Source of the DNA: Rubellicoccus peritrichatus
GTDB lineage: Bacteria > Verrucomicrobiota > Verrucomicrobiia > Opitutales > Cerasicoccaceae
NCBI RefSeq assembly: GCF_033100135.1
Contig: NZ_CP136920.1
Location: 4,025,001 to 4,089,000, forward strand
DNA: 64,000 bases
Direction of reading: 5' to 3'
Part shown: positions 36,703 to 60,311 of the stretch, one piece after another
Layout of the letters: every line of letters starts with the position of its first letter
How positions within the stretch are numbered: the stretch's first letter is position 1
The notes under the pieces: model-generated
The model's database searches: none
What the model was told of the DNA's origin: nothing
What the model saw: only the letters and a program-made list of their open reading frames with translations
Position numbers and translations under genes: made by a program

Positions 36703-38607
<1,905 letters not shown>

Positions 38608-38637: not shown

Positions 38638-41600
38638 GTGCTCACCCCACCCAACAGATGCCAGAACCGCGATGGTTTCGCTCTCATATTGAGCCTCGCT
38701 CTTATGGGCTTCGTCTTCTTATTACTGGTGACGCTCACGACGCTCGTTTCGGTTGAGATTCAAAATGCAGGACATACAAACCACAAAGCACGAGCAGAGC
38801 AAAACGCAATCCTAGCCTTGCATATTGCCTTGGGCGAACTCCAGCGCACCACTGGACCTGACCAACGGATAACCGCACCTGCCGACTTACAATTTCCCAA
38901 CTCCGCGAGTAATCGACACTGGACGGGAGTCTATGGCCATGCCTTGACGCCCGAATACGCGCTCTCACCGGAAACCATCGCCAATGAATGGACCGACACA
39001 AGCAAGGTCGACAGCCAGGGCTCTGCCGCAAAGTTGCTCAGCTGGCTCGTCAGCGGCAATCCCACTACGAGTTCCTGGCCGACCTTCGAAGCAGAAGGGC
39101 AGCTAGCCAGCCCTGCCACCGATGCCACTCCACAATACCTTCCCGACGCGGCAGTGAGCAATCTCACTGTGGCGACGCCTGCGACTTCAACAGAAGTAAC
39201 AATCGCCAACTCCAGTGGCACGGCACAGCCTGCACGTATCCTAGTCGGCCCGGGCTCCGCAGAATATGTCAAAGACTTCGTTATCGCCCCACTGGTGGAG
39301 ATAGAAGGTTCCGACTCATTTGGTCAACGTGACAGCTACGCCTGGTGGGTCAGTGATGAGAATGTAAAAGCCCGGGCAAACCTCGAACTGGAAACCGATT
39401 CCGCAAAATTACCTTTTGCCTTTGCCAATGCCACCCGATCAGCAATCGAACTGATGGCGGCAGACGAGGGCACAGGCGAGCTCGATGCCGCAACGATCGA
39501 CACTCTTTATGATCCTACGGGGGACTTGCTGAGAGCCAACGATTTGGATAGCTTAAGCCTAGCGTCAACAACACCCAGCGATTTCGCTGCTATCCAAAAG
39601 CGACGCTTTCATGACCTATCCACCGTCTCCACCAGTGTGCTGAGCGATAGCTTCGCCGGCGGGCTCAAGCGCGATCTCTCCACCCTACTCGATGAAAGCT
39701 ACAGCCCGCCAAGCAACGACCTCACTGCGAGCACCGAGCGCCTATGGACACAACATACGGATGACTCGACGGGTTACGGCATACCCACTTGGGGTCACCT
39801 GCGCTCCTTTAATCAGACCCGGGTTTCCAGCGATGGCAAAGTCGACGCTGTCCTCCCTGTTTTTGACAAAGTCGGCTTCGAGGATCACGTCGGTGTCACC
39901 CCAGTTCTTACCTATTTTTCGCTTGGTATTGGCTTCAGCGCTGAGGGCTTCTCTGCAGGCTCAAATATAAACGTGGACTTATACCCCTTGATTGTTCTGT
40001 GGAATCCCTACAACTTCACCATCAAAGCCCCACCACTAAACAGTAATGGTGCTAATTTTGAAGTAGGCTTTTTGCCCAATAAGGAAGTCATGATGGGTGT
40101 TGATATATATGACCCTGGTATCCTCAATGGCGAAAATTATGATTGGCGTAACATCGGCACTTTAGACTTAAGAAAAAACATCGAAAAAGACTCTTCAGAC
40201 CCGGACGAGAATGACATTGAGTTCATGCGCTTCAGCCTGAACTGTCCTGATATCCCCCCCGGCCAAAGTCTTGTATTTCGTGTCTCAGATGCCGACATTG
40301 GTGATGCCTATGATTCTGGCATAGTGCTTCAAAACCTAGACGCGTTTCCAAGCTATGTCTCTGTTCCTGTCGCACAGCTGGATAAAGATTTTTCAACGAC
40401 AACACTCTTTCGAGTGGGCCCGCGCTACAGCGTCAATTATCTGGGTAACCCCAGCATAAATCTCAGTAGCGACATTGCAAATGGTGGTAATGGTGGACTT
40501 TTCAATTATCTGGGTGAGCCTCAGGACGAACGGGTCATTGCCAATCCAGAAGGTGACCCGCTTGCCTTCAACCCTGCTAATCCGGCAAGACGTTGGTATC
40601 AGACGCAGCAAAGCATCACTTGGGAGAACGCTGACGTCTCCGAAACGCAAGAATCGCCTGTAAGAGTCAATACGAACTCCGGTGACCGCGTCTTTGGATC
40701 CGCCAGAGTTGATTTGATACCCGAATTCAAGCAACCGACTAGCCTCAGCAGTGACTCTTCGGTCTCTTATGTCATCACTGCTCACGCACTGTTTTCCGGG
40801 GCAGGCAGTAACGCCTACCTTAGCAGCAATCAGCATATGTTTCCCACTCGCTGGATTGCGCAAAGTAATCTTCGTGCGACTCGCACGGGGCGCACGATTC
40901 GCGATAATAACTATTTGCCTATGTTAGTGGCCACGGCCGGGACCGAAGGTGGGAGTAACGCATGGCCAAAATTCAGTTCCGAAGACGGATCATACAGTAA
41001 CCGCGTCTCCGCAGGTTCTGGCCATGACTGGGAGATGGGTGAGCCAGTTGATTCAACTCTTTTTGAATTTCTGCCTGAGGACCAGCCCCTGTTCTCAATC
41101 GGACAGCTCCAACATGCCAACCTATCCCTCATCGGCGCGTATCCCTCCTACCCTATTGGTAACAGCCTCGCGGATTATCATTTACATGAAAAATCAACTA
41201 GTGGCAGTATTTTGCAGCCAGAAGATTACCAGTTGGCACGAGTTGACTCTGTGACAACCACAAACAGACTCCTCAAAGCTGATCAAGAAGCTTACTACGA
41301 TATCTCTTACCTGCTCAATAGAAATCTATGGGATGCATATTTCCTCTCAACCATTCCCGCGACAGGGGCGATTCCTACCGAACTGCCCAACCCTCGCATG
41401 GCTTATGCAGACAGTAGTGACTTGCGTGACCCCGATAAAGCTGCCGCAGAGATGAAGTTAATTGGTGGCTTCAATATCAATTCGACTTCTGAGCAGGCAT
41501 GGCGTGCTGTCCTCGGAGGAGACAAGGGGCTAGCTTACAACCCTGTCACTGGGAGCGACAGTAGCATAGCATTACCTACGACATTCCCTCGCTTCACGCA

Positions 41601-42360
41601 ACCAACATCGGACGATGGATGGACCGAGCCTTGGCAGGGCTATCGCAGCCTTAGTGATGAGCAAGTGGCACAACTCGCACATAACATCGTGAAGGAAATC
41701 AAAAACCGGGGCCCCTTCATCTCATTAGCTGATTTCATAAACCGGCGCCTAGTCGATAATCCTGAAACCAATGATAGTGATGTCGAAGATACTCCCTATG
41801 AATATGAGGATTTGCGCGGCACTATCCAGGCCGCTCTCGACAGGACATGGAGCTCTACGGATACGGCGAGTGCCCCTAGCGGTATGAATGCGTTTCCCGC
41901 AAACAATGGTGAGGATAGCTTCTGGAAAGAAAAGCTAGAGCAAGACGGCTTCCTCCTCGGACATCCCAATAATCAGACCAGTAGCCAATTCGGACAAGGT
42001 TCCAGATATGCCTACGACTTGCGGCGTATCCAAGGTGGCGATGTTGAGCGTAATCCTTATAGCCACCCTTCGGCTTTTTCCCCAAAATTTGTTACGCAGG
42101 CAGATGTGCTTTCAAGCATTGGGGCCAGCCTGACTGCCCGCTCGGATACCTTTACCATTCGAGCCTATGGTGAGGTTTCCTCCACATTCAGTAGTGACAA
42201 AGTCGTAGGCGTCTGGTGTGAGGCAGTAGTGCAGCGCACACCTTTCTACATTGAGGATACAGATAACCCCGAAGATGCACCTAGCTCCGCAACCAATAGA
42301 GAATTTGGGCGCCAATATAAACTGATAAGTTTCCGATGGTTAAAAGCCGAAGAAGTCTAG
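38638..42360 (+). CDS. Large prepilin/PilX-like protein resembling Verru_Chthon cassette protein A
   Basis: The start is GTG at 38638, giving 1240 residues. A short basic leader (RCQNRDG) is followed by FALILSLALMGFVFLLLVTL, a type IV prepilin-like hydrophobic helix. The usual Glu at position 5 of the mature pilin is replaced. Next comes AILALHIALGELQRTTGPDQ, a phrase I associate with Verru_Chthon cassette protein A. The rest is a long beta-rich region with many Ser and Thr and no enzyme motif. The length is that of the cassette A family, whose role is unknown but thought to concern pseudopilin-type structures. I see none of the small pilin-like partners B, C and D. It follows the GH1 gene by 30 nt, and its 3' end overlaps the next gene by 25 nt, so all three are probably one transcript. 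Confidence 0.65.
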   Translation: MLTPPNRCQNRDGFALILSLALMGFVFLLLVTLTTLVSVEIQNAGHTNHKARAEQNAILALHIALGELQRTTGPDQRITAPADLQFPNSASNRHWTGVYGHALTPEYALSPETIANEWTDTSKVDSQGSAAKLLSWLVSGNPTTSSWPTFEAEGQLASPATDATPQYLPDAAVSNLTVATPATSTEVTIANSSGTAQPARILVGPGSAEYVKDFVIAPLVEIEGSDSFGQRDSYAWWVSDENVKARANLELETDSAKLPFAFANATRSAIELMAADEGTGELDAATIDTLYDPTGDLLRANDLDSLSLASTTPSDFAAIQKRRFHDLSTVSTSVLSDSFAGGLKRDLSTLLDESYSPPSNDLTASTERLWTQHTDDSTGYGIPTWGHLRSFNQTRVSSDGKVDAVLPVFDKVGFEDHVGVTPVLTYFSLGIGFSAEGFSAGSNINVDLYPLIVLWNPYNFTIKAPPLNSNGANFEVGFLPNKEVMMGVDIYDPGILNGENYDWRNIGTLDLRKNIEKDSSDPDENDIEFMRFSLNCPDIPPGQSLVFRVSDADIGDAYDSGIVLQNLDAFPSYVSVPVAQLDKDFSTTTLFRVGPRYSVNYLGNPSINLSSDIANGGNGGLFNYLGEPQDERVIANPEGDPLAFNPANPARRWYQTQQSITWENADVSETQESPVRVNTNSGDRVFGSARVDLIPEFKQPTSLSSDSSVSYVITAHALFSGAGSNAYLSSNQHMFPTRWIAQSNLRATRTGRTIRDNNYLPMLVATAGTEGGSNAWPKFSSEDGSYSNRVSAGSGHDWEMGEPVDSTLFEFLPEDQPLFSIGQLQHANLSLIGAYPSYPIGNSLADYHLHEKSTSGSILQPEDYQLARVDSVTTTNRLLKADQEAYYDISYLLNRNLWDAYFLSTIPATGAIPTELPNPRMAYADSSDLRDPDKAAAEMKLIGGFNINSTSEQAWRAVLGGDKGLAYNPVTGSDSSIALPTTFPRFTQPTSDDGWTEPWQGYRSLSDEQVAQLAHNIVKEIKNRGPFISLADFINRRLVDNPETNDSDVEDTPYEYEDLRGTIQAALDRTWSSTDTASAPSGMNAFPANNGEDSFWKEKLEQDGFLLGHPNNQTSSQFGQGSRYAYDLRRIQGGDVERNPYSHPSAFSPKFVTQADVLSSIGASLTARSDTFTIRAYGEVSSTFSSDKVVGVWCEAVVQRTPFYIEDTDNPEDAPSSATNREFGRQYKLISFRWLKAEEV

Positions 42361-43061
42361 GCAAAGCTCTGCTGGTGTTCTGCGCCATCGCCTCCATTAC
42401 CGCATCAGCTCAGAGTGTGGATGAGCCTGTGCGCTTCCGCCTACTGTCACTCTTCGGCTCATTGAGTTTTTTGTACGAAACAGAGGATGGCCCTAAGCGT
42501 ATGTATACCAGCTCAAGTTCTTTTTCCAGCTGGTATGAAGCGCCCGATAATCGACGTCTGAATTTCTACCGCGAGGTGCCTGCCCCTGAGCCTGAATTGC
42601 CCCCCGTAAAGCATACACTGGCAGACCTGACCCTGCCCAGTGGTCCAGGACCCTTTTTGGTAGTGCTTATGAAGAAGTCGGATGGCGAGGGGCTCAACAG
42701 CATAATCCTTGATCACTCACTTGAAGCACATCCTCCCTCGCGTTACCGAGCATTCAATTTCTCCAAACGCCGCATGGCCGTGCGCTTAGCAGAACAGGAC
42801 ATACTACTGGAGCCAAGTGGTTCCGCCCTCGTTAACTACCCTGAAGGCCGTAAAACATGGCTGAAAATCGCCGTGGACCAGCCTGACACAGGCTGGATAA
42901 AAGTAGTCAGCAAGCCCCGTCCCGTCGATAACCAAACCCGGAGCACCATCGTCATATTAGACATCCCACCCAGTGTCCGTGACCTCGACCCCATCGGCGT
43001 CATCGTGCGCGAAGTCCGGGAACAGATCGTAGAAGGCGAACAAGGGTCGACCCTACAGTGA
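42336..43061 (+). CDS. Small exported protein of unknown function, coupled to the PilX-like gene
   Basis: This 241-residue protein has a signal peptide (about 1-26, MVKSRRSLGKALLVFCAIAS, ending ASAQ). The remainder is a soluble beta-rich protein with no family I recognise. Features include a Pro-rich segment (PAPEPELPPVKH, about 83-94) and a final helix near 220-236. Its ATG lies inside the end of the PilX-like gene, with 25 nt overlap in another frame. This strongly suggests translational coupling and joint function at the envelope. Similar small partners are plausible for other Verru_Chthon-A-like genes, but I cannot verify that here. Confidence 0.7.
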   Translation: MVKSRRSLGKALLVFCAIASITASAQSVDEPVRFRLLSLFGSLSFLYETEDGPKRMYTSSSSFSSWYEAPDNRRLNFYREVPAPEPELPPVKHTLADLTLPSGPGPFLVVLMKKSDGEGLNSIILDHSLEAHPPSRYRAFNFSKRRMAVRLAEQDILLEPSGSALVNYPEGRKTWLKIAVDQPDTGWIKVVSKPRPVDNQTRSTIVILDIPPSVRDLDPIGVIVREVREQIVEGEQGSTLQ

Positions 43062-43210
43062 AATAGCTGCATAAGTCAGCCATTCACCAACATAAGTCGA
43101 TTTCAAGCCGCTTAATGGTTGAGTTTTTAGATGATTTTAATTAATTTCACCAACTGTGTCATTTACCTACCCAATAGCATACCGTTTAGCCAATAGACCC
43201 TCTTTCCCCA

Positions 43211-44989
43211 ATGAGTGCTAGCTTGACCAAATTCCCAGATGATTTCGTTTGGGGCGCATCAACATCATCCTACCAGATTGAGGGTGCTTCGGATATAGAT
43301 GGCAAAGGGCCATCGATTTGGGATTTATTCTGTGAATCCAAAGGACAAATCTGGCGCGGCCAACATGGAAAGATCGCTTGCGATCACTACCACCGATTCA
43401 AAGAAGACGTGGCGCTAATGTCACAGATGGGGCTTAAGGCATACCGCTTTTCGCTATCTTGGCCACGCATTCTCCCCATGGGCACGGGCAAGGTAAACAT
43501 GGCCGGCATTCACTACTATAATACCTTAATCGATGAATTACTCGAGAACGACATAGAGCCGTGGGTGACTCTATTCCATTGGGACTTTCCCTATGAACTA
43601 CTCCAGCGCGGAGGCTGGCTCAATCGCAGTAGCCCAAAGTGGTTCGAGGAATACACAAGCGTAGTAGTTAAAAATTTCTCCGACCGAGTCAGCAAGTGGA
43701 TGACGATTAATGAGCCTCAGTGCTTCATTGGGCTTGGTCACCTAAATGGTAAACACGCACCAGGGCTTAGGCTCAGCCTGTGTGAGGGTCTAAGGGCAGG
43801 CCACCATGCACTTCTGGCTCATGGGCGCTCAGTGCAAGTGATTCGCGAGCATGCCAAGAGCAAAGCAACAGTTGGCTGGTCGCCGTCAGGCTCTGTTTAT
43901 CGCCCCATCAGCAAGGCCCTGAAGGACGTCAATGTAGCACGTGAAGCTACCTTCGCAATTTATCCAGATAATACATGGAACACGCGATGGTGGGCAGATC
44001 CGGTCATACTTGGACAGTATCCAGATGAAGGACTGAAGGTCTATGGTGATGCGGCCCCAAGGGGAACCAAAGCAGAAATGGCACTGATTCATCAGCCCAT
44101 AGACTTTTATGGCTGTAACATTTTTGAAGCGCCCTCTGTAAAAATGAGCCCAGAGGGACGACCAGTGGCAGTAGAGCTAACCGAAGGCGAAGCAATCTCA
44201 CTTTATGAATGGACTCTGAATCCGGATGCTCTGTATTGGGGGCCACGTTTCATATACGAACACTATAAACTGCCAATTGTTATTACAGAAAATGGCTGCT
44301 CCATGTTGGATCAAGTAAGCCTTGATGGTGCGATTCACGACAGTAATCGCAAAGACTTCATCGTTAGAAATCTACTATCACTCAATCGTGCAATGGATGA
44401 AGGCGTCGAAGTAAAGGGCTATTTTCATTGGTCACTACTTGATAACTTCGAATGGACAGAAGGCTTTAAGCATCGCTACGGCTTGGTCTTCGTCGACTTC
44501 CAAACACAGGCCCGCATCATGAAGGATTCTGCCTTTGCTTATCATGAAATAATCTCAAGCAACGGTGAATGCTTACGCAAATATACACACACACACGAAG
44601 AGCCCGTGCCATATGTCGTCAAGGAGGCACAGCGCTATATAGAAAATAACATCATTGAAACATTCAACGTGAAGACCATTGCTGCGCATTTGAACTGCCA
44701 TCCCGATTACCTTAGCCGCTGCTTTAAAAAACACACCGGCAGCAGCCTCAGCAGCCACATTCGAAGCATACGCCTAGAGCATGCACGCAATATGCTGCGC
44801 GATCCAAACATACTAATTGGCTACGTAGCGGACTCCTGCGGATTCTCAGATCGCATTCATTTTACCAAAGTCTTCCGCAAAACAATGGGTATGACTCCAG
44901 GGCAGTTCCAAAGGCAGTTTCGCACTCGCGATAGCTCTGCGGATAGCCCTGACAAAGAGTTCTCAAAAAACCCCAGATTATTGAATTAA
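43211..44989 (+). CDS. GH1 beta-glycosidase fused to a C-terminal AraC-family DNA-binding domain
   Basis: The 592-residue product has two parts in one unbroken frame. Residues 1-455 are a complete GH1 enzyme: TINEPQ with acid/base Glu 168, VITENG with nucleophile Glu 360, and FHWSLLDNFEWTEGFKHRYG. Residues about 470-575 are an AraC/XylS double helix-turn-helix: FNVKTIAAHLNCHPDYLSRC, then IGYVADSCGFSDRIHFTKVF, and the final signature TPGQFQRQ. The joint is a short His/Thr-rich linker (KYTHTHEE) coded by an (AC)6 tract. GH1 enzymes hydrolyse beta-glycosides; AraC domains bind promoter DNA. A fusion would be a cytoplasmic enzyme that senses its own substrate or product and regulates transcription directly, a trigger-enzyme design. 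This is inference. It ends sharing TTAA with the convergent AraC gene. No signal peptide. Confidence 0.9.
   Translation: MSASLTKFPDDFVWGASTSSYQIEGASDIDGKGPSIWDLFCESKGQIWRGQHGKIACDHYHRFKEDVALMSQMGLKAYRFSLSWPRILPMGTGKVNMAGIHYYNTLIDELLENDIEPWVTLFHWDFPYELLQRGGWLNRSSPKWFEEYTSVVVKNFSDRVSKWMTINEPQCFIGLGHLNGKHAPGLRLSLCEGLRAGHHALLAHGRSVQVIREHAKSKATVGWSPSGSVYRPISKALKDVNVAREATFAIYPDNTWNTRWWADPVILGQYPDEGLKVYGDAAPRGTKAEMALIHQPIDFYGCNIFEAPSVKMSPEGRPVAVELTEGEAISLYEWTLNPDALYWGPRFIYEHYKLPIVITENGCSMLDQVSLDGAIHDSNRKDFIVRNLLSLNRAMDEGVEVKGYFHWSLLDNFEWTEGFKHRYGLVFVDFQTQARIMKDSAFAYHEIISSNGECLRKYTHTHEEPVPYVVKEAQRYIENNIIETFNVKTIAAHLNCHPDYLSRCFKKHTGSSLSSHIRSIRLEHARNMLRDPNILIGYVADSCGFSDRIHFTKVFRKTMGMTPGQFQRQFRTRDSSADSPDKEFSKNPRLLN
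44585..44596 (+). repeat. (AC)6 dinucleotide tract at the GH1-AraC junction
   Basis: Six AC units lie exactly in the linker codons between the GH1 and AraC parts. Gain or loss of one unit would shift the frame after the enzyme domain, leaving the GH1 part intact and removing the DNA-binding part. Six units is short for a mutable tract, so slippage is possible rather than likely. Confidence 0.7.
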
Positions 44990-45846
44990 TTTGGTGCCTT
45001 ATACCACTCACTAGAGGATTCCTGACGTCGCTGCATCCTTAGCCACTGAGATGGCGTTTGATTCATTTTCCCACGAAACCACTTGGTAAAATGTGAACCG
45101 TCAGAGAAGCCCAGCTGCGCCGCAATTTCCTTAATAGAAAGCAAATCCGAACGGAGCAGCTGTTCGGCACTTTTCAGGCAAGAGGCCTCTTTCCATTGCT
45201 TGGGCGTCAAATCGGTTGACTGCTTGAAAATCCGATTGATTTGCGCACGCGACAGACCCACTACGCGACTGAGCTTACTATAATCCACTGGGCTGATGCC
45301 AATGTCTTCACCTAAAACAGAGATAATTTCGTAAATGCGTCTGTTCATTGGATATGCCGTATCTGCATAGCTCTCCTCTCGTGCCAAATGCCAATAGTGC
45401 AACCAATCTGCCAAGCGCGCAGATAGTTGTGCATGATCAGAGAGCATCATCGTGGCGTTCGCAAAATCCTGCTTACTTACTTGGCAAAGCGCTTCAGCGG
45501 CATCTAGAAGCTGCTCTTTCTGAGCTCCACTATAAATACAAGGCTCACGCAATGGCGGCAGAAAATGTAACCCCTGCCAATCCATTCGGAAACGAATCGA
45601 GACGATCTGCGCATCACAAGAAAATCGATGTGACTTCACTGTTAAAGGATCTTTAAAGACCCAATCACCCTTGCGAGCGCGTAGACGCTTGCCGGCACTG
45701 GTGACTTCCACTTCTCCCCGGCGCATATACCAGCTCACGTAGGAAACCCCAGTATATGCATTTTGATTCAAGAACTCCGGAATCACACGATCATCGTAAA
45801 TGACACCTAGCTCGTAAAATGGATGCGTGGAGTTCATTGCAATCAC
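44986..45846 (-). CDS. AraC-family transcriptional regulator with cupin-like sensor domain
   Basis: The 286-residue product has an N-terminal cupin-like arm (about 10-110; SYVSWYMRRGEVEVTSAGKR is a typical beta-barrel stretch). The C-terminal AraC double helix-turn-helix lies at about 185-278: YSKLSRVVGLSRAQINRIFK, then IKEIAAQLGFSDGSHFTKWF, then TPSQWLRM. The longest frame starts at GTG 45846; ATG at 45837 is an equally good choice and no ribosome site decides. Regulators of this build bind a sugar and activate adjacent catabolic genes. It is divergent from the FAD oxidoreductase-sulfatase pair across 83 nt, the most likely target, and convergent with the GH1-AraC fusion, sharing the bases TTAA at the stops. 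Confidence 0.85.
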   Translation of the reverse strand: MIAMNSTHPFYELGVIYDDRVIPEFLNQNAYTGVSYVSWYMRRGEVEVTSAGKRLRARKGDWVFKDPLTVKSHRFSCDAQIVSIRFRMDWQGLHFLPPLREPCIYSGAQKEQLLDAAEALCQVSKQDFANATMMLSDHAQLSARLADWLHYWHLAREESYADTAYPMNRRIYEIISVLGEDIGISPVDYSKLSRVVGLSRAQINRIFKQSTDLTPKQWKEASCLKSAEQLLRSDLLSIKEIAAQLGFSDGSHFTKWFRGKMNQTPSQWLRMQRRQESSSEWYKAPN

Positions 45847-45929: not shown

Positions 45930-48815
45930 ATGATTGTCCCGAAAGCCCCGATAGGTGAATTACCCATCGTCGCCGATGTCGATATCGTGATTATCGGCGC
46001 AACAGCGGCGGCGGTGTCCACAGCATTGTCCGCCCATCGGCATGATGCATCGGTCTATGTGATTTCATCACGGCCCTACTTCGGGGAAGACATTTGCGCG
46101 GCATACCGGTTTTGGCCGAAGAGTGCTCAAGGCAATGCGCTGTCTCACGCGATATTCTTGGAAGAAACTGCGCCACCGCCCACGCCCTTGCACGTGAAGC
46201 TAACTCTAGAGCAGCAACTCATAATGGCAGGCATCCCCTTCCTCTTTAACTGCTTTCCTGCCGGGCTTCTTCGTGACGATGAGGGGACGGCGCAGGGGGT
46301 CGCCATTGCAAATCGCACAGGCCTGCAAGCGATTCGTGCCCGTATGGTGGTCGATGCAACACTTGACGCTATGGTGCTGAAGCAAGCTGGCCATCAAGAA
46401 CTTCACTGCCTGAAGGGGTCACAGCAAATCAGCTATGTCACCCTCTGCGAAGGTGACGGCACAGATGCACAAGGCATCAATGACATCGAGCACCTGCCAG
46501 GCTATCAATGTGAAGAATATCAGCTGAGTGCTCGGCGCTATCAAGTCGACGTGGATTTCGGAGACGGTGGCCCTAAGGCACTCGCTGATGCATATAGTGC
46601 TCTAGTGGACCAATGCTGGGTGTATCAGGAATACCGCCATCAGATGCGCGTTTTGCCAACTCTAATGCAAACCGAAGTGGAGCCCACACTTGATGAGCTA
46701 ATAATCGAACCGGGCCTCATCGCCATAACCGAAGCGATACAGCTAAAACAGGGTGCGGAGTTTTGCTTTTGCAACCCCATCACCGCTATGAGGATTGCTG
46801 AGGCTATAAGCAGCCAACTAGTGGATAAGCTACCTGCTAAGTCGAATGCAGGACTTAGAGTTACTTGCGCCGAAAGCCAGAAAGTTGATTGTGGTGAGCT
46901 GCGCACATTGCATGCTGCCTTACGCCCTGAAGCGCAATTCAATTCTACCGCTACTCTTGATACAAGCAGTCTGCCATCGCTGGGCACTTTCGATGTGGTG
47001 GTCGCTGGTGGAGGCACTGGAGGTGCGCCTGCTGCTATCAGCGCTGCACGAGCTGGCGCCAGAACCCTCGTCGTCGAATTGACCTCTGGCCTAGGCGGCG
47101 TTGGCACCATGGGCCAAATTGCCAATTACTGGTGTGGCAATCGCGTAGGATTCACGGCGGAGATTGATCAAGGCGTCCGACAACTAGAACATAAGGACTA
47201 CTTTAAGGAAAATAGCGGTTCTTGGTCGGTCTCAGCAAAACAAGCATGGTATCACCAGACGGGGCGCAAAGAGGGCTGCAGCTACTGGTTCAACACGCTT
47301 TGCGCAGGAGTGCTAGTTAAGGATAATCGCGTAAGCGGCTTGCTGGTTGCAGGCCCTTACGGCTATGGAGTGGTAAAAACCCGGAGCATCGTCGATAGTA
47401 CAGGCTGCTCCGACATCCCAGCTGCTGCAGGCGCGCCCACTATGGTCATCGGTAAAGATCACATCGCCGTGCAGGGCACCGGCTTAGCTGGGATAAAGCC
47501 CGGCCGAGACTATCATAACTCTGACCATAGTTTCTCCGACGATACTGACATCGTAGACTCGACAGCTTTTCTCGCCAGTTCGAAGCTAAAATTCAAAGGG
47601 GACTTTGACTGCGGAGAGCTAGTGGACTCCAGAGAGCGTCGCCAAATCATCGGCGACTATTCCATCACTCCCGTCGATATCTTATTCAATAGACGCTTTC
47701 CCGATACTGTATGTGTTGCGACTTCCAATTTCGATTCGCATGGTTTTACCGTGGACCCGGTTTTCATGCTGGTTCCACCCAATAAAAAAGACGCACTTTG
47801 GGCGGACATACCGCTGCGCTGCCTACTCCCCAAGGGCTTGGACGGGGTGTTAGTTACTGGGCTAGGCCTCAGTGCCCATAGGGATGCTCTGCCCGTTATA
47901 CGTATGCAAGCCGACGTGCAGAATCAGGGTTATGCCGCAGGTTATATTGCCGCTCTTTCAGCCGACTCGGGTAAAGCGATCCGCGAGATGGATATTCGAG
48001 AAATTCAAGGTCACCTAGTCTCGATTGGTGGCTTGCCAGAGCGTGTAATGCGCGACGAAGATTCTTTCCCGGTCTCCGATGAAGCCATGGAGGGAGCAGT
48101 TGAAAACGGGTGGGATAGCCTCCCAGGTGTCGCCCTAATGCTCCACGAGAGCCAGCGCAGTCGCCCGCTAGTCAGACAGGCCTACAGCCTGATACAGGGT
48201 GCACACTCACGACAGAGCATCCGCTACGCGCAGATACTCGCGTTGCTTGGCGATCCTATTGGTAGTGCGGAAATCCAAGAAGAAATCACTTGTCGTGCTT
48301 GGGACGAAGGCTGGCGATTCCGCGGCATGCACCAGTTTGGTATGAGCCTTTCGGAGGTGGATACGTTATTGATTTGTTTGGGCACTATTGGAGATTCTGC
48401 TGCCTGGCGTTGTATACTGGAAAAAATTAACACGCTGCCAAAGGAGGCCGAGTTTTCCCATTTTCGGGCGATTTGCATGTGCTGTGAGGCTCTGTATGAA
48501 CACAGTCCAAATGACTCAATCGCTCCTGCAATCGCAAATCTTATTAACCGACCAGGCTATCTTGGTAATGCCCAATTGAATATGCACAAAGCGCAGGCCG
48601 ATCTGACTGATGACATCAACGAAAACGAAGTGCGCGACCGCGCGTTGCGTGAAATCCACCTGGCCCGAGCACTCTATCGATGTGGCGATTATGATAACTT
48701 GGGCCAAAAAGTATTGGAAGAATACTGCGGGGATATCCGTGGGCATTTTGCGCGCCATGCTAGAAGTATTCTTGCGCAGCAACTAGTCGCAAAAGAAGAA
48801 CTACAAGAAATATGA
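45930..48815 (+). CDS. FAD-dependent oxidoreductase with two flavin-binding-like modules
   Basis: The 961-residue product has no signal peptide. Residues about 15-300 look like an FAD-dependent oxidoreductase (FAD_oxidored) module, but its dinucleotide loop reads IIGATAAAVSTA instead of G-x-G-x-x-G. A second, complete module starts at about residue 350 with VVAGGGTGGAPAAISAARAG and continues to about 690, including GGVGTMGQ and GLGLSAHRDALPV-type motifs. The last 250 residues are helical, HEAT-like. Single-module relatives often sit beside sulfatases and glycosidases in Planctomycetota and Verrucomicrobiota, with unknown substrates. Here the stop overlaps the sulfatase start (ATGA), so the two are coupled. 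Regulation by the divergent AraC protein is likely. The first module may have lost FAD binding. Confidence 0.8.
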   Translation: MIVPKAPIGELPIVADVDIVIIGATAAAVSTALSAHRHDASVYVISSRPYFGEDICAAYRFWPKSAQGNALSHAIFLEETAPPPTPLHVKLTLEQQLIMAGIPFLFNCFPAGLLRDDEGTAQGVAIANRTGLQAIRARMVVDATLDAMVLKQAGHQELHCLKGSQQISYVTLCEGDGTDAQGINDIEHLPGYQCEEYQLSARRYQVDVDFGDGGPKALADAYSALVDQCWVYQEYRHQMRVLPTLMQTEVEPTLDELIIEPGLIAITEAIQLKQGAEFCFCNPITAMRIAEAISSQLVDKLPAKSNAGLRVTCAESQKVDCGELRTLHAALRPEAQFNSTATLDTSSLPSLGTFDVVVAGGGTGGAPAAISAARAGARTLVVELTSGLGGVGTMGQIANYWCGNRVGFTAEIDQGVRQLEHKDYFKENSGSWSVSAKQAWYHQTGRKEGCSYWFNTLCAGVLVKDNRVSGLLVAGPYGYGVVKTRSIVDSTGCSDIPAAAGAPTMVIGKDHIAVQGTGLAGIKPGRDYHNSDHSFSDDTDIVDSTAFLASSKLKFKGDFDCGELVDSRERRQIIGDYSITPVDILFNRRFPDTVCVATSNFDSHGFTVDPVFMLVPPNKKDALWADIPLRCLLPKGLDGVLVTGLGLSAHRDALPVIRMQADVQNQGYAAGYIAALSADSGKAIREMDIREIQGHLVSIGGLPERVMRDEDSFPVSDEAMEGAVENGWDSLPGVALMLHESQRSRPLVRQAYSLIQGAHSRQSIRYAQILALLGDPIGSAEIQEEITCRAWDEGWRFRGMHQFGMSLSEVDTLLICLGTIGDSAAWRCILEKINTLPKEAEFSHFRAICMCCEALYEHSPNDSIAPAIANLINRPGYLGNAQLNMHKAQADLTDDINENEVRDRALREIHLARALYRCGDYDNLGQKVLEEYCGDIRGHFARHARSILAQQLVAKEELQEI

Positions 48816-50200
48816 ACCACTATAATTCATACTCAAAGCTCAAGAGCTGCTTACCGCTGGTCACTATAATACTTGTGATGGCATCGTCTGCATTTTCACA
48901 GGATGAGGCTATCCTTCAGCGGCCCAATATTCTGATCATCTTTGCTGATGACCTAGGCTATGAAACGGTCGGAGCTTACGGAGCGCTCGATTTTTCTACA
49001 CCTAATCTGGACGCCATGGCTGAGGACGGTATGCGCTTTTTGCGCGCCTACACGAGTCCAGTATGCACGCCTAGTCGGGTAAGCCTTCACACTGGGCTCT
49101 ACACTGTGGATCACAAGCACACAGGAGTCTTACCCGTGCATACAGGAACACGTGAAATTGTCGACTTCACGCCCATGCCAACATTTGCACAATTGCTTCG
49201 CGAGAATGGCTACCAGACGAGCGTCACTGGCAAGTGGCAGCTAGCCACTCTCGCCTACCACCCGAAACACCCCTATACTGCAGGCTTTGACTCATGGTGC
49301 TTATGGCAAATATGGGATGGGGATAAAAACTTAAAGACAACGCGTTTTTGGAACCCTTGTTTAAACCGCGACGGTCTCATCCTGAATGGCACAATACTGG
49401 AGGAAGCAACTGAGTTGCCTAATGGCGTTGTCCTCGAAGCAGGCACCACGATTACAGATGCAAGATCAGAATTCGGACCGGATGTGCTTAATGGTTACGT
49501 CCAAGAACGAATGGCAAAAGCAAGTGCAGAAAAGCAGCCCTTTCTAATTCTGCATAATATGATGCTCCCTCACCGTCCTATAATTGAGACCCCTGCAGGT
49601 GGTGAAGCTTCACTTGCTGGAATGGTTAGCTACATGGATATGCTGGTCGGCAGTCTGCTAAAAGAAATCGAGCAACTGGGAATACGGGAAAACACCTATG
49701 TGTTTTTTATTGGCGATAACGGAACAGAATCTGGTAATCCACGCCAAACAATAGCAGGCGCCGTAATGGGTGGAAAGCGCAACCTCAATGACGCTGGAAC
49801 ACATGTACCATTTATAGTTTGGGGGCCCGAGGCGATACCCGAAGGCACAGTGAACAACACTCTCGTAGATATTACTGATATTTTTCCGACAGTATGTGCG
49901 CTTGCGGATGTGCCAGTTCCGGAAACCCTTTTCATACGTGGGCATAGTATAGCGCCGCAGATATTGGGCGATGCGGTAGAGTCACCGCGAACATTGGTGC
50001 ATATGGGAATTTCGGGCGGAGGACATGCGCTTTACGATGGTCACTGGCGTTATGTCAAAAAGGGCAAATCCGAAGTTATCATAGACAGTAGTGCTTTACC
50101 TATTGAACGCGTCAGCATACCAGAAACCGAAGAAGCAACACTAGCAAAGAAGCGCTTGAGATATGAGCTGGAAACCATCATCGCTACAAGTCCACGGTAA
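48812..50200 (+). CDS. Secreted S1-type (arylsulfatase-family) sulfatase
   Basis: This 462-residue enzyme has a signal peptide (about 1-29, ending SAFSQ). NILIIFADDLGY supplies the metal-binding Asp pair (46-47). SPVCTPSR contains the Cys-x-Pro-Ser-Arg signature, with Cys 85 the residue that an FGE-type enzyme turns into formylglycine. TGKWQL carries the active-site Lys, and FFIGDNGTESG the later metal ligands. The family removes sulfate esters from sulfated glycans outside the cytoplasm. No maturation enzyme gene is in the window. At 462 residues it is a compact family member. Its start overlaps the oxidoreductase stop by 4 nt. With five GH16-type genes nearby, the target is probably a sulfated marine polysaccharide, but the sulfatase subfamily cannot be fixed by eye. 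Confidence 0.9.
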   Translation: MNHYNSYSKLKSCLPLVTIILVMASSAFSQDEAILQRPNILIIFADDLGYETVGAYGALDFSTPNLDAMAEDGMRFLRAYTSPVCTPSRVSLHTGLYTVDHKHTGVLPVHTGTREIVDFTPMPTFAQLLRENGYQTSVTGKWQLATLAYHPKHPYTAGFDSWCLWQIWDGDKNLKTTRFWNPCLNRDGLILNGTILEEATELPNGVVLEAGTTITDARSEFGPDVLNGYVQERMAKASAEKQPFLILHNMMLPHRPIIETPAGGEASLAGMVSYMDMLVGSLLKEIEQLGIRENTYVFFIGDNGTESGNPRQTIAGAVMGGKRNLNDAGTHVPFIVWGPEAIPEGTVNNTLVDITDIFPTVCALADVPVPETLFIRGHSIAPQILGDAVESPRTLVHMGISGGGHALYDGHWRYVKKGKSEVIIDSSALPIERVSIPETEEATLAKKRLRYELETIIATSPR

Positions 50201-50657: not shown

Positions 50658-51455
50658 CTATGAGCGACGCTGGCGTAGACACACTACGGCCATACCAAGC
50701 AGGCCAGCTGCCATCGCGTATGTGGATGGCTCGGGTATCGCGTAAATATCCAAGACGTCAGCTTGTGTGGTGCCGACCAGTAGATTATCCCATTGAACGG
50801 TCGAACTATCATTGAGAACTGAGATGCCAAATGTGTCGATGGTGACATCAAAGTTGGCAGCGTTTTCTGCGATGTTTGCGACTCCTAAGGTCGTTGAGCT
50901 AGGATTGATCCACATTTCCATCAGATCATAACCAGTACCAGCGCCTGCGGTGCCGTCCTTAGATAATCTACCGACTAGGAATACATTTCCTGCAGGCAAG
51001 GCAGATCCTCCAGAAATAAACTGAGAAGTATTTACGCGGTAACCCGAGTAGATTAAGCCCGAATTACTTTGAATGCGTCCCATGACCCCACTATTTGCCA
51101 AGCCAGAACTTTCACCAACTTGGAACCAATAACGACTATTACCGCCTGCGGATACGGTATTGTAAGTGAAACTGAACCAGACATCGCCGGTTTGGCCCGT
51201 GAATGCCTTGGAGGCTGCTCCTTGAGCACTAGCGTTCGTCCATACCGCGTGATTTGTGCCACCATCAATGGAAATATCGCCGTTACTGTAATCAAGGCCG
51301 CCAGCTGCAACGTCCATTTCGGTAACTGCGCTCCAACCATCTTGGCCATTTAAATCGCCAATCGAGAGACTGTTAAAATTTTCGTTTAGCAAAGTAATGC
51401 CCTGCGCTGTTAAGGTGCAGGCAAGTAATGAGACAAGGAAAAAGAGGTATTTCAT
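50658..51455 (-). CDS. Exported PEP-CTERM protein
   Basis: The 265-residue product has a signal peptide (about 1-19, MKYLFFLVSLLACTLTAQG). A beta-sandwich-like body is rich in Gly, Asn and Ser, with a WFSFTYN strand recalling concanavalin-like folds. The C-terminal tail is a textbook PEP-CTERM signal: IPEPSTYAMA, then a hydrophobic helix, then RQRRS. It should be processed by an exosortase and displayed or released. There is no close partner: its own terminator lies downstream and the GH16 gene upstream is 158 nt away. Position in the glycan region suggests it may bind carbohydrate, but no binding site can be read. Confidence 0.85.
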   Translation of the reverse strand: MKYLFFLVSLLACTLTAQGITLLNENFNSLSIGDLNGQDGWSAVTEMDVAAGGLDYSNGDISIDGGTNHAVWTNASAQGAASKAFTGQTGDVWFSFTYNTVSAGGNSRYWFQVGESSGLANSGVMGRIQSNSGLIYSGYRVNTSQFISGGSALPAGNVFLVGRLSKDGTAGAGTGYDLMEMWINPSSTTLGVANIAENAANFDVTIDTFGISVLNDSSTVQWDNLLVGTTQADVLDIYAIPEPSTYAMAAGLLGMAVVCLRQRRS

Positions 51456-51613
51456 AAGATTATGTAGGATCTGGGGATTGGATTGTAATAAAGCTGTGGA
51501 TTACTGAGTGAACTAATGTAATCTATAGCTTAGCACAATTTTTACTTCACTGGTAGTCATAAGGCGACTAAAAATATGTCAATCGCTGAACTACAGTATT
51601 AAAAATAGCATAG

Positions 51614-53575
51614 TTAGCTATCTTGATTTAGTTTTGAGTCATCTATTTTTCTGGCAAGATCTGCCCGCTGCCATACGCGGACATAGTCGATTAGAAATTC
51701 GTCAGGAAGCAGCTTGTCATCCAAGGGTTCATTGTCCCAGCCCCCAGCAACGAATGTGAAAATAATGCCTGATTTTATATGCGAAATACGATCGCTTTCC
51801 CAACGTACTATTTCCTCACCGTTATTATATATGACGGCCAGCCCAGGTAGCCAGAGCAGTCCCGTGGTGACGTAGCCCTCCTCATCATGCCCGGTGTAGG
51901 ATCCTGCCCCTTTTGCCTTATGATCTTTTTTATAGCCATCATAGTGGAATGCAGTGGTGAAACGATATGGGCCCCAACCCGATAAAAACTCCATAATATC
52001 AAACTCCATCCCACCAAATCCGGTATGCTGGCGACGCCACTGCTCACCAGCTTCCGGTCCGCGGTCAGGCATAAGCCAGAATGCCGGCCACAGGCCGGGA
52101 GAACGAGGTAGCTTCATTCGTGCTTCAAAGTAACCATATAGCTGGACCCACTTCCCATAAGTTTCCAAGAAACCGGTGGTGTAGTCGTTACTACGTGGAT
52201 AGTCCGGATCATCATTATGTGGGCCGAAGCGCTTCTCAAAGGTTAGGACAGCATTTCCATCTACCAGGTTGACGTTGTCTTTGCTGAAACGGCTGATCTT
52301 ATCCCAGTAGTTCGGTGCATAAACCTGCCAAATGGTATCGTCGAGCGTATCGCCTTCGAATTCCTCATTTAAGGTCAGCACCCAGTCGCCATCTACTGGT
52401 GGCCGCTTACCCACCCAATCTGGCAACTTAACTGGCGGTGCAGTCAATCGTATAGACTCGATCTCAAAGGACTGCGTCCCTTCAATTCCGTTTGCAGAAA
52501 CAACCAAAGCTTTAACTTTATTATTTTCGAAAAAGGGATTCTTAATGGACGCATCTCGTGGTTTCTTCTGTATGAAGGAAACGGTAATTTCGCCACTTTC
52601 ACCAGCTGCAAGGGGCTCTACAGCAGTCGCTATATCAGTCTTGCCTTTATCACTGATGACCTGAAATGCAGGTGAGATAGACGTTTTTCCGCTGTTACTT
52701 AACTTGACTAAAAGCTGATAACCTTGGCGCAAATCCCAAAGCGCACCACCCTCAGGTGCTAATACAAGCGACTGGTCTTTAGCACTAAAAGTAACGCTTA
52801 GCGGTTTTTCATTGGCAGGCGCCGTGTATTTGGCACCTTCCTTGGGATAGTATTTCAATGGAGCTGCGTTTGCTGAACCGAGCAGGTAACCGTCCTTAGG
52901 TGCCACGTTGGGTTTAAAGGGAACTGGCGTGCTCTTGATTTGGATCGAGTCAATGCGCAGGGATTGACCTGGCGAAGCATTTCCCGTATGAACCAATATT
53001 CGGGAAACATCAGATTTATCCAACGGGTAAGCTGCTTTTCTGAAAGAATAACCAAAAAATATTCGTATAATTTTGGTGTCACCCTTCTGGAGCCTTGTGG
53101 CGTTGGAATTCCATGGCTTCTTTTGCCACTCTCCAGGATTCTCAACGCGAGCCGTTACATAGACAGGCTTTTCACCAAGACTGGTGACTTTGACCTCGAC
53201 GCAGGTAAAATCCGACAAGTCCCATGAGTCACCCTCCATGGGCAAGAAGCTAACACCGGGATAGCCTCCGCCACCTTCTGCAAAATCTACCACTAAACCT
53301 GTGGCAGAATGCGGGTCCTTCGGTGTAAGCGTAACGGAATCATCGCTTGGCTTCATTTCATACTCAAGCTCGATGGTGTCCTTATCCCAATTGCGCGCAT
53401 TTGCATATTGTAAAGCCGAAAAACTGGACAGCAGTCCAATAAGCGCAGCTATATGCCCGAGGCGAACTCGAAGAAAATGAATAAACATTGGACATAAGAT
53501 GGGATTAAGCATGGTTAAAATATACACTGTTTTTGAAAAACCCGAAAGTCGCCATCTGACTAGATTTGTGCCCAT
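51614..53575 (-). CDS. Secreted GH16 family endo-glycanase with N-terminal accessory domains
   Basis: The 653-residue frame starts at ATG 53575. A better signal peptide begins at the internal ATG 53488 (MFIHFLRVRLGHIAALIGLL), so that start is possible. Residues about 60-390 form two beta-sandwich accessory domains of unknown family. The GH16 domain spans about 395-640: GLWPAFWLMPDRG, then EFDIME with nucleophile Glu 524, Asp 526 and acid/base Glu 529. DYVRVWQR closes the fold. GH16 enzymes cut internal beta-1,3 or beta-1,4 links in laminarin, agar, carrageenan and similar glycans with retention. Unlike the three paralogues to its right, this catalytic domain has no inserted module. The gene follows the GH106-like gene by 6 nt, so the two are probably co-transcribed. 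Confidence 0.88.
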   Translation of the reverse strand: MGTNLVRWRLSGFSKTVYILTMLNPILCPMFIHFLRVRLGHIAALIGLLSSFSALQYANARNWDKDTIELEYEMKPSDDSVTLTPKDPHSATGLVVDFAEGGGGYPGVSFLPMEGDSWDLSDFTCVEVKVTSLGEKPVYVTARVENPGEWQKKPWNSNATRLQKGDTKIIRIFFGYSFRKAAYPLDKSDVSRILVHTGNASPGQSLRIDSIQIKSTPVPFKPNVAPKDGYLLGSANAAPLKYYPKEGAKYTAPANEKPLSVTFSAKDQSLVLAPEGGALWDLRQGYQLLVKLSNSGKTSISPAFQVISDKGKTDIATAVEPLAAGESGEITVSFIQKKPRDASIKNPFFENNKVKALVVSANGIEGTQSFEIESIRLTAPPVKLPDWVGKRPPVDGDWVLTLNEEFEGDTLDDTIWQVYAPNYWDKISRFSKDNVNLVDGNAVLTFEKRFGPHNDDPDYPRSNDYTTGFLETYGKWVQLYGYFEARMKLPRSPGLWPAFWLMPDRGPEAGEQWRRQHTGFGGMEFDIMEFLSGWGPYRFTTAFHYDGYKKDHKAKGAGSYTGHDEEGYVTTGLLWLPGLAVIYNNGEEIVRWESDRISHIKSGIIFTFVAGGWDNEPLDDKLLPDEFLIDYVRVWQRADLARKIDDSKLNQDS

Positions 53576-53581
53576 TCCTGA

Positions 53582-55450
53582 CTAATACGATTCGCCAAAA
53601 TAAAGTCTCAATTCTCCACTGCTGAGCTGAATGGGGAAATCTCTCGTCAGCTCAATGCTGCTCAGACTTGCGCTGCCTAGGTCTATCTCACGCCATCGGA
53701 AACCAGGTAAAAGAGTCATGTTGGTTGCGAGGGCCTCTTCACCCTCGTTGAATAGGAGGCACCATAACGCGCCATCCTTGCGAACGACACGCAACCGCAG
53801 CCAAGGGCAAGGATCGTTAAGTATCAAAGGAGCTTCTACCAATGCATTCAAGTGCTTGAGGAATACAGCTTCATTTTCCAATAACAGTAAACGTCCAGAC
53901 CTGCTGAAATCGCAAAGAGTATCAATGGCCTTAGGGCTAATGCAATCTGGCTCAGCGACCAACAAGGTATAACGCATGGGTCCCACTTCAATAGCATTCG
54001 CACTCACCCGAGCATCTTCCCAGAGATACCTCTCTTCTAAATAATGAAAATCAATTTTTTGCTCGTAAAGAAGGCGTGCCGAGCGCTCTGGCAGCTGGTC
54101 ACTTCTCCCGAGTATAGCAACACTGCAAAGTGGTTCGGATTCAAAGTTGACCCAGCACAGTCGATGACATACCTGATGGAATTCAACCAGCTCTGCATCA
54201 TTCCACCACCTGGCATGAGGGCCAAGCTGCGGCGGGCAGTCGTCCACACGCGCACCGCGTATTGAATAAAAGAAGGCATGAGGCAAAAGCAGATTACAAC
54301 CACGCACGAGCAACCAATTGGCTACGAAGCGATAAAGCGATAAAGAAATGCTTTCACCATAGGCACCCATGAATTCATTGGCATTGCGAGGTCGACTCTG
54401 GTGTATAGCTGCGGATGCAGCGCACTTTGCCTGCGTCGAGGGAACACCCGTTACTGCCTTTTCACCTGGCAATATATCGCCCAAGATAACGTCCTGCCCT
54501 GGCCATTGAAAATAACGCAGATGGCCGATGTTATCCGCGTGCTCCGGGTGCCCCGTCAGGGCAATGCTATGCGCTTCGCACCACTGACTAAGTGGCTGAT
54601 AATAGGTCTCCTCAAGGCGGTGGTATATCGCACGGTGATAATCCGCTCGATAGCGCTTCGCGTCGTGTTCGTCATCGAGCCACAGTTTGGGCAGGTGCGG
54701 AATAAAGTCATAGCCAAGGTAGGAGTTCACATGCTCAAGAACACCAATCGTGCCTGGGCGTGCATCGAATGGACTGAAGCGCCCCATGACGTAAGGTTCA
54801 TCTGTAAAAATTGCCGGAATTGTATTTTCAAAGAATTCGCCAAACTCATCAAAATATCGCTGGTAAACCAACCGGATAAAACAGGCCACCGCTTCTGGGT
54901 TAAGCAAATCTGTGGCAGGTGGATGATCCTCGGGGGCGCGGCGCTCCATCCAGCTCGCTCCTTCAACTACTACATCACCAAAGCCATCCTGAAAATGCAC
55001 ACCACGGATCGCCGATTCGATTGGCCGATCAACAACGTAAGCCATCTGACCTGATTGTGTTTTCCACTCGTATACGAGGTTATGCCCTGATGCTGACGGT
55101 GGCTTGTATTGCATCACCATGCCGCGACACGCAAAGTCTGTATTCTCGGCCACCACTTGGCCTCCGGAGGACCCAGAGGGATACATCGCTTCATCATAAA
55201 GGATGACATGCATGTCCCTGCGTTTGGCCTCTTCGATAACCGAACGCATGCACTCGAGTAGCGGACGGGACATCCATTCGAAATCACGCGTCAAGCCAAT
55301 GCGCGGATGAATAACAAAACCTTGAATCCCCCTTTCCTGAAACTCTGCCAACTGCTTCAACAAGCGTGGCAGCTCCAATTTATCATTCCAGAACCAAAAT
55401 GGAGTCAGCGAGAGGCGCTTGTCTGGACTGATAAAGGCTGGGGGAAGCAT
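53582..55450 (-). CDS. TIM-barrel glycoside hydrolase-like protein (GH106-like)
   Basis: The 622-residue product has no signal peptide. The start LTPFWFWNDKLELPRLLKQL, then GIQGFVIHPRIGL and LYDEAMYPSGSSGG, is a pattern seen in large bacterial glycosidases near GH106 alpha-L-rhamnosidases and related unclassified barrels. IPAIFTDEP (about 208-216) places acidic residues where a catalytic Glu could lie. The last 150 residues look like a small beta-domain. I cannot assign a substrate, and the family link is tentative. It sits between secreted GH16 genes, 14 nt after one and 6 nt before the next. It may finish off oligosaccharides inside the cell while its neighbours act outside. Confidence 0.6.
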   Translation of the reverse strand: MLPPAFISPDKRLSLTPFWFWNDKLELPRLLKQLAEFQERGIQGFVIHPRIGLTRDFEWMSRPLLECMRSVIEEAKRRDMHVILYDEAMYPSGSSGGQVVAENTDFACRGMVMQYKPPSASGHNLVYEWKTQSGQMAYVVDRPIESAIRGVHFQDGFGDVVVEGASWMERRAPEDHPPATDLLNPEAVACFIRLVYQRYFDEFGEFFENTIPAIFTDEPYVMGRFSPFDARPGTIGVLEHVNSYLGYDFIPHLPKLWLDDEHDAKRYRADYHRAIYHRLEETYYQPLSQWCEAHSIALTGHPEHADNIGHLRYFQWPGQDVILGDILPGEKAVTGVPSTQAKCAASAAIHQSRPRNANEFMGAYGESISLSLYRFVANWLLVRGCNLLLPHAFFYSIRGARVDDCPPQLGPHARWWNDAELVEFHQVCHRLCWVNFESEPLCSVAILGRSDQLPERSARLLYEQKIDFHYLEERYLWEDARVSANAIEVGPMRYTLLVAEPDCISPKAIDTLCDFSRSGRLLLLENEAVFLKHLNALVEAPLILNDPCPWLRLRVVRKDGALWCLLFNEGEEALATNMTLLPGFRWREIDLGSASLSSIELTRDFPIQLSSGELRLYFGESY

Positions 55451-57291: not shown

Positions 57292-57389
57292 ATAGAATGC
57301 CTTTAATATAGCACATCAGCAGACGACGCCATGAGTCATTTACTGACGCAAAGTGTGCGCTTTACAGACTGCTATGACAGCCTTGACTC

Positions 57390-60167: not shown

Positions 60168-60311
60168 AATAGGAGGGTTGGGGTTGTAACTAAGCCGAGG
60201 GGTTACGGCATTTCAGAGGTTCGAAAGCCCTCATGCTCTAAAGCTAACACACTTCGCGACTACTGCGTTAGTCACTCGCTGTTTCCCATTGTGCTCTTTT
60301 CTGACTCCTCA

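Follow-up and report, generated by a model that had tools for sequence, protein, structure and literature searches.

Regulators of the AraC/XylS family, among them AraC, XylS and RhaS, carry a double HTH_18 helix-turn-helix at their C terminus and a cupin-like or binding-protein domain as sensor, and recognise asymmetric direct-repeat half-sites about two helical turns apart; the half-sites of araI1-I2 are spaced by 21 bp. Trigger enzymes such as PutA and BirA are competent enzymes that hold an enzyme fold and a DNA-binding part in one chain. Yeast Gal3, a catalytically lost paralogue of a pathway enzyme, keeps the galactokinase fold, serves as inducer sensor beside its active paralogue, and is not known to bind DNA. 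The anti-sigma factor RsgI6 of Clostridium thermocellum has a GH10 sensor which is described as having very low activity with binding retained (PMC4711584).

Here we describe a gene of the verrucomicrobium Rubellicoccus peritrichatus in which the AraC-type DNA-binding part is preceded by a complete GH1 barrel in place of a cupin-like or binding-protein sensor. We think it likely that the product controls a beta-1,3-glucan regulon as an AraC-type protein that senses beta-glucosides inside the cell, its GH1 domain having been blunted into a sensor.

Results

The window, by which we mean the whole 64,000-nucleotide stretch of the R. peritrichatus chromosome that was analysed, contains at 43211-44989 (+) an open reading frame of 592 residues with an ATG start and no internal stop. 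Pfam finds two domains in its product, both far over the cut-off: Glyco_hydro_1 at residues 7-452 (43229-44566, +; 471.5 bits, E 2.7e-141), which is beta-glucosidase-like and is our proposed sensor; and an AraC double helix-turn-helix at residues 490-569 (44678-44917, +), where HTH_18 scores 75.1 bits over positions 1-80 of its 80-position profile and HTH_AraC is also matched. An inter-domain segment (44567-44677, +) separates the two, and the preliminary description was right to place both in one stop-free frame. The GH1 part exceeds the equivalog cut-off of TIGR03356 BGL (505.1 bits against 478.5), and in an AlphaFold model (mean pLDDT 83.5, pTM 0.75; alignment of 30) it matches GH1 structures, best of all Ks5A7 (9l0q, TMt 0.93). 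With the fold and profile of GH1 and the C-terminal double helix-turn-helix (HTH_18) of AraC/XylS proteins, the fusion is, judged from its sequence, a member of the AraC family by domain content and of GH1 by fold, failing in one catalytic feature. Elsewhere in the same genome are regulators of 806 and 791 residues (L248:1067-3487 and L249:2045-4420), each of which appears by eye to be a single chain of head-to-tail duplicated, XylR-like units of a binding protein plus an AraC domain.

A search for other proteins of this architecture, which the preliminary description had called for, yielded 30 distinct full-length copies after removal of duplicates, all from Verrucomicrobiota: 28 in 18 genomes and two in further MAGs (L043, L044), with the nearly identical copies L123 and L124 both counted. 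Protein searches found full-length fused matches at four taxonomic levels: order, 11 of 372 genomes; class, 13 of 384; phylum, 5 of 387; family, 6 of 10. These genome sets overlap, and the three larger searches scored the three best candidates per genome. Spread outside Verrucomicrobiota was judged from one pattern scan of GTDB contigs, which returned 48 loci, 11 of them fused and all 11 assigned to Verrucomicrobiota by title or named genus; they include Cerasicoccus arenae, Opitutaceae, a Methylacidiphilaceae MAG and Spartobacteria LR76. The architecture is preserved across several lineages of the phylum. Given so many distinct full-length homologues, we reject a chance fusion, and the frameshift that the preliminary description had named as its possible undoing is very unlikely, as is a misassembly. 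In titles and the opening parts of abstracts, with subscription papers mostly outside reach, we found no paper on a GH-AraC fusion, and among the PDB matches listed (60 of 195) no molecule is named as one.

In a GH1 tree of the 30 fused copies and the 55 best-scoring of 85 unfused sequences, built by a quick method with a midpoint root and without bootstrap, a single branch (SH-aLRT 98) sets all fused copies apart. Most of the unfused GH1s that neighbour a fusion belong to a single group (18 rows, support 88), that of L047 being an exception. Among the fused copies the first recognition helix, CHPD.L.R.F, is near-invariant. The spacing from G452 to P467 is 14 residues in 29 of the 30 and 12 in the other, with a spacer of varying sequence, as if coupling between the domains were required. 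The C-terminal tail (residues 571-592) is variable, yet at least 90% of the 30 copies retain P588 and R589 near its end.

We then compared the active sites. The window protein has both catalytic glutamates, as described earlier: the acid/base E168 (codon 43712-43714, +) and the nucleophile E360 (44288-44290, +). It does not have the catalytic tyrosine that positions the nucleophile, residue 305 (44123-44125, +) being phenylalanine. Other members depart further. Position 168 is Glu in 24 of the 30 fused copies, the window's included, and Asp in six; position 360 is Glu in 28, Gln in one and Lys in one; and position 305 is Phe in 27, Ser in two and Tyr in one. The unfused sequences have Glu, Glu and Tyr at these positions in 85 of 85 cases, a set reduced from 91 rows by dropping six incomplete duplicates, one of which was a piece of a fused copy and the source of the sole apparent unfused Phe at 305.

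In the alignment, position 305 falls on the Tyr of an N-x-Y segment in Ks5A7, a beta-glucosidase of solved structure. From this motif, rather than from superposition, we take it to correspond to Y295 of TmBglA, Y296 of HoBGLA and Y298 of Abg. Two reports equate these three residues, and in the GH1 enzymes characterised there Tyr-to-Phe exchange lowers kcat about 45-85-fold (PMC9113129, PMC4803828): for TmBglA Y295F, kcat on pNPG is given as 85-fold lower (PMC9113129), and for HoBGLA Y296F on cellobiose, kcat is given as falling from 387 to 8.5 per s and Km as rising from 10.0 to 20.2 mM (PMC4803828).

Mapped onto the tree by parsimony, nine active-site positions account for 16 changes in the fused group and none in the unfused, the totals over residues 10-449 being 2250 and 5159; the p-value of this excess (Fisher, 5e-9) is only indicative, the counts being parsimony minima and the positions having been chosen after the alignment was viewed. 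Changes of the catalytic Glu residues are confined to the fused group. Q22, H123, W124 and W415 have no change anywhere on the tree, and E414 and W407 changed once each, both in copy L146. The fused family looks like one in which the constraint on catalysis has been relaxed and binding, through the glucose-contact residues, has mostly been kept. Since Tyr has given way to Phe at the nucleophile-positioning residue and a catalytic Glu is missing from some members, catalysis appears not to be what selection maintains. These substitutions argue for reduced enzyme activity of the fusion; the window protein probably has residual activity, because 24 of the 30 copies, its own included, keep the acid/base Glu.

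An unfused GH1 beta-glucosidase gene, here GH1b (37180-38607, +), lies 4.6 kb upstream of the fusion on the same strand, as the preliminary description had noted. Its product is 52-53% identical to the GH1 part of the fusion and keeps the catalytic Tyr; we presume it to be both a working enzyme and a target of regulation. An unfused GH1 is found in the same stretch at 18 of the 30 fused loci (19 with L147), divergent and within 600 bp at 12 and in another arrangement at six; of the 12 loci where none was found, L147 is an undercount, two (L146 and L156) lie on short contigs, and nine are represented by stretches of 17 kb.

This bears on the proposal of the preliminary description that the protein, with its active-looking hydrolase, is a candidate trigger enzyme. 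A true trigger enzyme would be a working, catabolic beta-glucosidase that regulates during turnover. The intact pair of glutamates, the score over TIGR03356 and the observation that the change to Phe slowed, but did not abolish, catalysis in the two characterised enzymes (PMC9113129, PMC4803828) would all suit such an enzyme, but the near-general loss of the Tyr and the restriction of catalytic-Glu changes to the fused group do not, and where an unfused GH1 shares the stretch, catalysis has another provider. We consider the trigger-enzyme proposal improbable and prefer a sensor derived from an enzyme.

Between GH1b and the fusion lie a gene for a 1240-residue protein whose N terminus is pilin-like by eye (38638-42360, +) and, overlapping it, one for a 241-residue protein (42336-43061, +). 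Neither product has a Pfam or NCBIfam match. The pair recurs beside many fused GH1-AraC genes, and the order GH1b, 1240-residue protein, 241-residue protein, fusion is common to the window and L164. Downstream, all on the reverse strand, are a PEP-CTERM gene (50658-51455, -) and four GH16 genes. The product of 51614-53575 (-), whose true start is probably inside the called reading frame, is laminarinase- or beta-1,3-glucanase-like; that of 55465-57291 (-) is a laminarinase-like GH16 apparently interrupted by a CBM96, with laminarinase matches at residues 37-141 or 331-442 and the CBM96 at 150-284; and those of 57453-60167 (-) and 60312-63368 (-) are GH16 proteins with CBM96, in both of which the CBM96 precedes the GH16 match. 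For two of the window's GH16 proteins the best solved-structure matches are laminarinases or endo-beta-1,3-glucanases, mixed with unnamed GH16 entries.

GH16 proteins of more than 300 residues occur at 21 of the 30 fused loci and in 3 of 20 control GH1 stretches (Fisher p 0.00016), a comparison to be read with a longer stretch for the window, 15 of the 20 controls taken from fusion-bearing genomes, and GH16 queries taken from the window and the fused loci, which may favour finds there. A sulfatase gene of the window (48812-50200) resembles by eye that of L192 in G049, where a tandem match to the operator described below is located some 280 bp from the sulfatase start and has a divergent gene on its other flank; the sulfatase may be part of the same regulon.

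A candidate operator was sought upstream of the fused genes. Motif discovery by expectation maximisation used 28 of the 30 promoters (L150 is a near-copy of L149 and was left out, and the fused gene of L157 is masked by an overlapping reading frame). It gave a TGTCATTTnCYGAY-like motif with a log-likelihood of 149 against 50-53 for shuffled sequences, and training on the 16 promoters outside the window's family gave 112.5 against 48-51 for Markov controls, both sets of controls having had fewer random starts than the real runs. The first runs took in 15 coding bases, with which the family-held-out run converged on the ribosome-binding and start region; the held-out result given here comes from promoters without the last 22 bases. 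With only the window's own family as input (12 promoters), discovery missed the motif (52.9 against 45-47 for controls, width 16).

When the 64-kb window was scanned with the held-out motif, the three best matches were all in promoters: 57332 before a laminarinase-like GH16 gene, 43155 before the fusion and 37129 before GH1b. Matches four and five (62286 and 41718) are inside genes, and the next three (53567, 60290 and 51575) lie at or upstream of the starts of GH16 genes or the PEP-CTERM gene. Over the 13 loci of the window's family there are 24 matches at 12.5 bits, 14 of them in target promoters and 10 outside; target promoters, defined as the 250 bp preceding any fused, GH1, GH16 or pilin-like gene, make up 4.9% of the sequence, and there 200 column-shuffled motifs average 0.34 matches (maximum 3) and the reversed motif has 2. 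The fused promoters of L149, L150, L151, L152 and L154 have no site of at least 12 bits on either strand.

The sites have a preferred arrangement. With a half-site model from outside the family, an offset of -22 was the best of 90 at 59 held-out matches (mean -3.76 against -9.83, SD 1.20 across offsets), and 25 of the 59 rank it in the top five. Direct repeats of 22 bp precede part of the predicted targets, an arrangement that AraC-type dimers would be expected to recognise. In the window, tandem operator-like sites lie at the start of a GH16 gene (53545-53582, -; 12.1 bits, -22 half-site rank 1/90), upstream of another GH16 gene (60268-60305, -; 11.5 bits, rank 1/90) and, more weakly, upstream of the PEP-CTERM gene (51553-51590, -; 11.2 bits, rank 3/90). 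At GH1b we spotted by eye, around the match at 37129, a tandem direct repeat (37109-37142, +) of related 12-base words at 37109-37120 and 37131-37142, exactly 22 bp apart; the -22 half-site ranks 32/90 here, the repeat being on the other side of the match. No -22 half-site accompanies the best match of the window, upstream of a GH16 gene (57332-57347, -; rank 90/90), or the second best, upstream of the fusion (43155-43170, -; rank 52/90). At GH1b and the GH16 genes the sites are oriented toward the gene that they precede; that of the fusion is single and points away from it.

Within the order, 9 of 11 fusion-bearing genomes contain the tandem pattern, as do 17 of 361 others (Fisher p 5e-10), although the pattern derives partly from these loci, so that the 9 of 11 is inflated and the test partly circular; the reversed pattern occurs in 2 of 11 and 8 of 361. 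Several of the tandem matches in other genomes resemble by eye one conserved coding stretch, and an exact tandem match is absent from both the window's own genome and G117. Across the window's genome the 16-bp pattern with two mismatches is at chance (67 matches against 64 for the reversed pattern); with at most one mismatch there are four, three of them in this gene cluster, of which two had defined the pattern. In the control GH1 stretches from genomes lacking the fusion (L175, L176, L177, L186, L187) there are two matches, both inside genes. Of the 15 control stretches from fusion-bearing genomes, four (L174, L181, L183 and L184) show a site in front of their unfused GH1 and seven are free of matches.

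From this association we infer that the fusion protein binds the motif. The motif might instead belong to another regulator, with the fusion controlling other genes or little at all. Candidates for that role exist: the window's genome holds 64 further matches to the AraC part of the fusion, and a second AraC-type gene (44986-45846, -) adjoins the fusion, convergent with it and overlapping it by 4 bases, while among the flanks of other fused genes are LacI-like N termini at L153 and L167 (by eye) and a separate AraC-domain reading frame at L157 (BLAST); several fused promoters, moreover, are without the motif. But apart from its helix-turn-helix the adjoining AraC gene is unmatched at the other 29 fused loci, the motif tracks fusion-bearing genomes, and its direct-repeat form fits AraC-type sites, and we judge ownership by another regulator unlikely. 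That the fusion is an accident or annotation artefact with no regulatory role can be set aside almost entirely, given its copies in one group, near-constant linker length and near-invariant recognition helix.

Discussion

We suggest, as the most economical account of the locus, that a beta-glucosidase was duplicated and that one copy became the sensor through which an AraC-type regulator detects its inducer. The sensor, a duplicated GH1, would presumably be cytoplasmic. A laminarin-like beta-1,3-glucan would be cut by the GH16 glucanases, and the oligosaccharides would enter the cell, to be hydrolysed there by the unfused GH1. The same oligosaccharides would fill the GH1 pocket of the fusion and be bound and turned over slowly, because the nucleophile-positioning Tyr is Phe. 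The fixed-length linker would relay the ligand state to the AraC domain, and this would bind the direct repeats, spaced by 22 bp, that precede GH1, GH16 and linked genes; the effect on those genes would most likely be activation. The earlier suggestion that the GH1 pocket could report substrate to the promoter fares better than that of a trigger enzyme: the pocket is probably the sensor, and operator-like sites lie next to genes of glucan digestion.

A more speculative extension, which we hold to be rather doubtful, is that the slowed site is itself the signal. A long-lived glycosyl-enzyme or bound-substrate state would keep the AraC domain active and slow hydrolysis would reset it, a self-clearing timer of beta-glucoside flux; lineages lacking a catalytic Glu would be pure binding sensors.

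If the sensor account is true, a one-component transcription factor has arisen from a pathway's own enzyme, which was duplicated, blunted and joined to a DNA-binding domain. The account offers a testable candidate operator and regulon for beta-glucan use in Verrucomicrobiota, and the Glu, Asp, Gln and Lys found at the catalytic positions form a natural series for the study of how an enzyme becomes a sensor.

Among known systems, the fusion shares with AraC, XylS and RhaS the C-terminal double HTH_18, and its predicted sites resemble theirs in being asymmetric direct repeats about two helical turns apart, here 22 bp; it differs from them in its sensor. PutA and BirA are competent enzymes, whereas in the fusion the constraint on catalysis appears relaxed. 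Like RsgI6, the fusion as proposed reuses a glycoside hydrolase domain as a polysaccharide sensor. RsgI6, however, spans the membrane, senses outside the cell, acts via a sigma factor and uses GH10; in the fusion Pfam finds the GH1 and AraC domains only, with no membrane part and no RsgI N-terminal anti-sigma domain, and one chain holds both the GH1 domain and the DNA-binding part. By analogy, the fusion would work like RsgI6 but would not be an RsgI-type member. With Gal3 the fusion, as proposed, shares the use of a pathway-enzyme paralogue as inducer sensor, and differs from it in its fold and in carrying its own DNA-binding domain.
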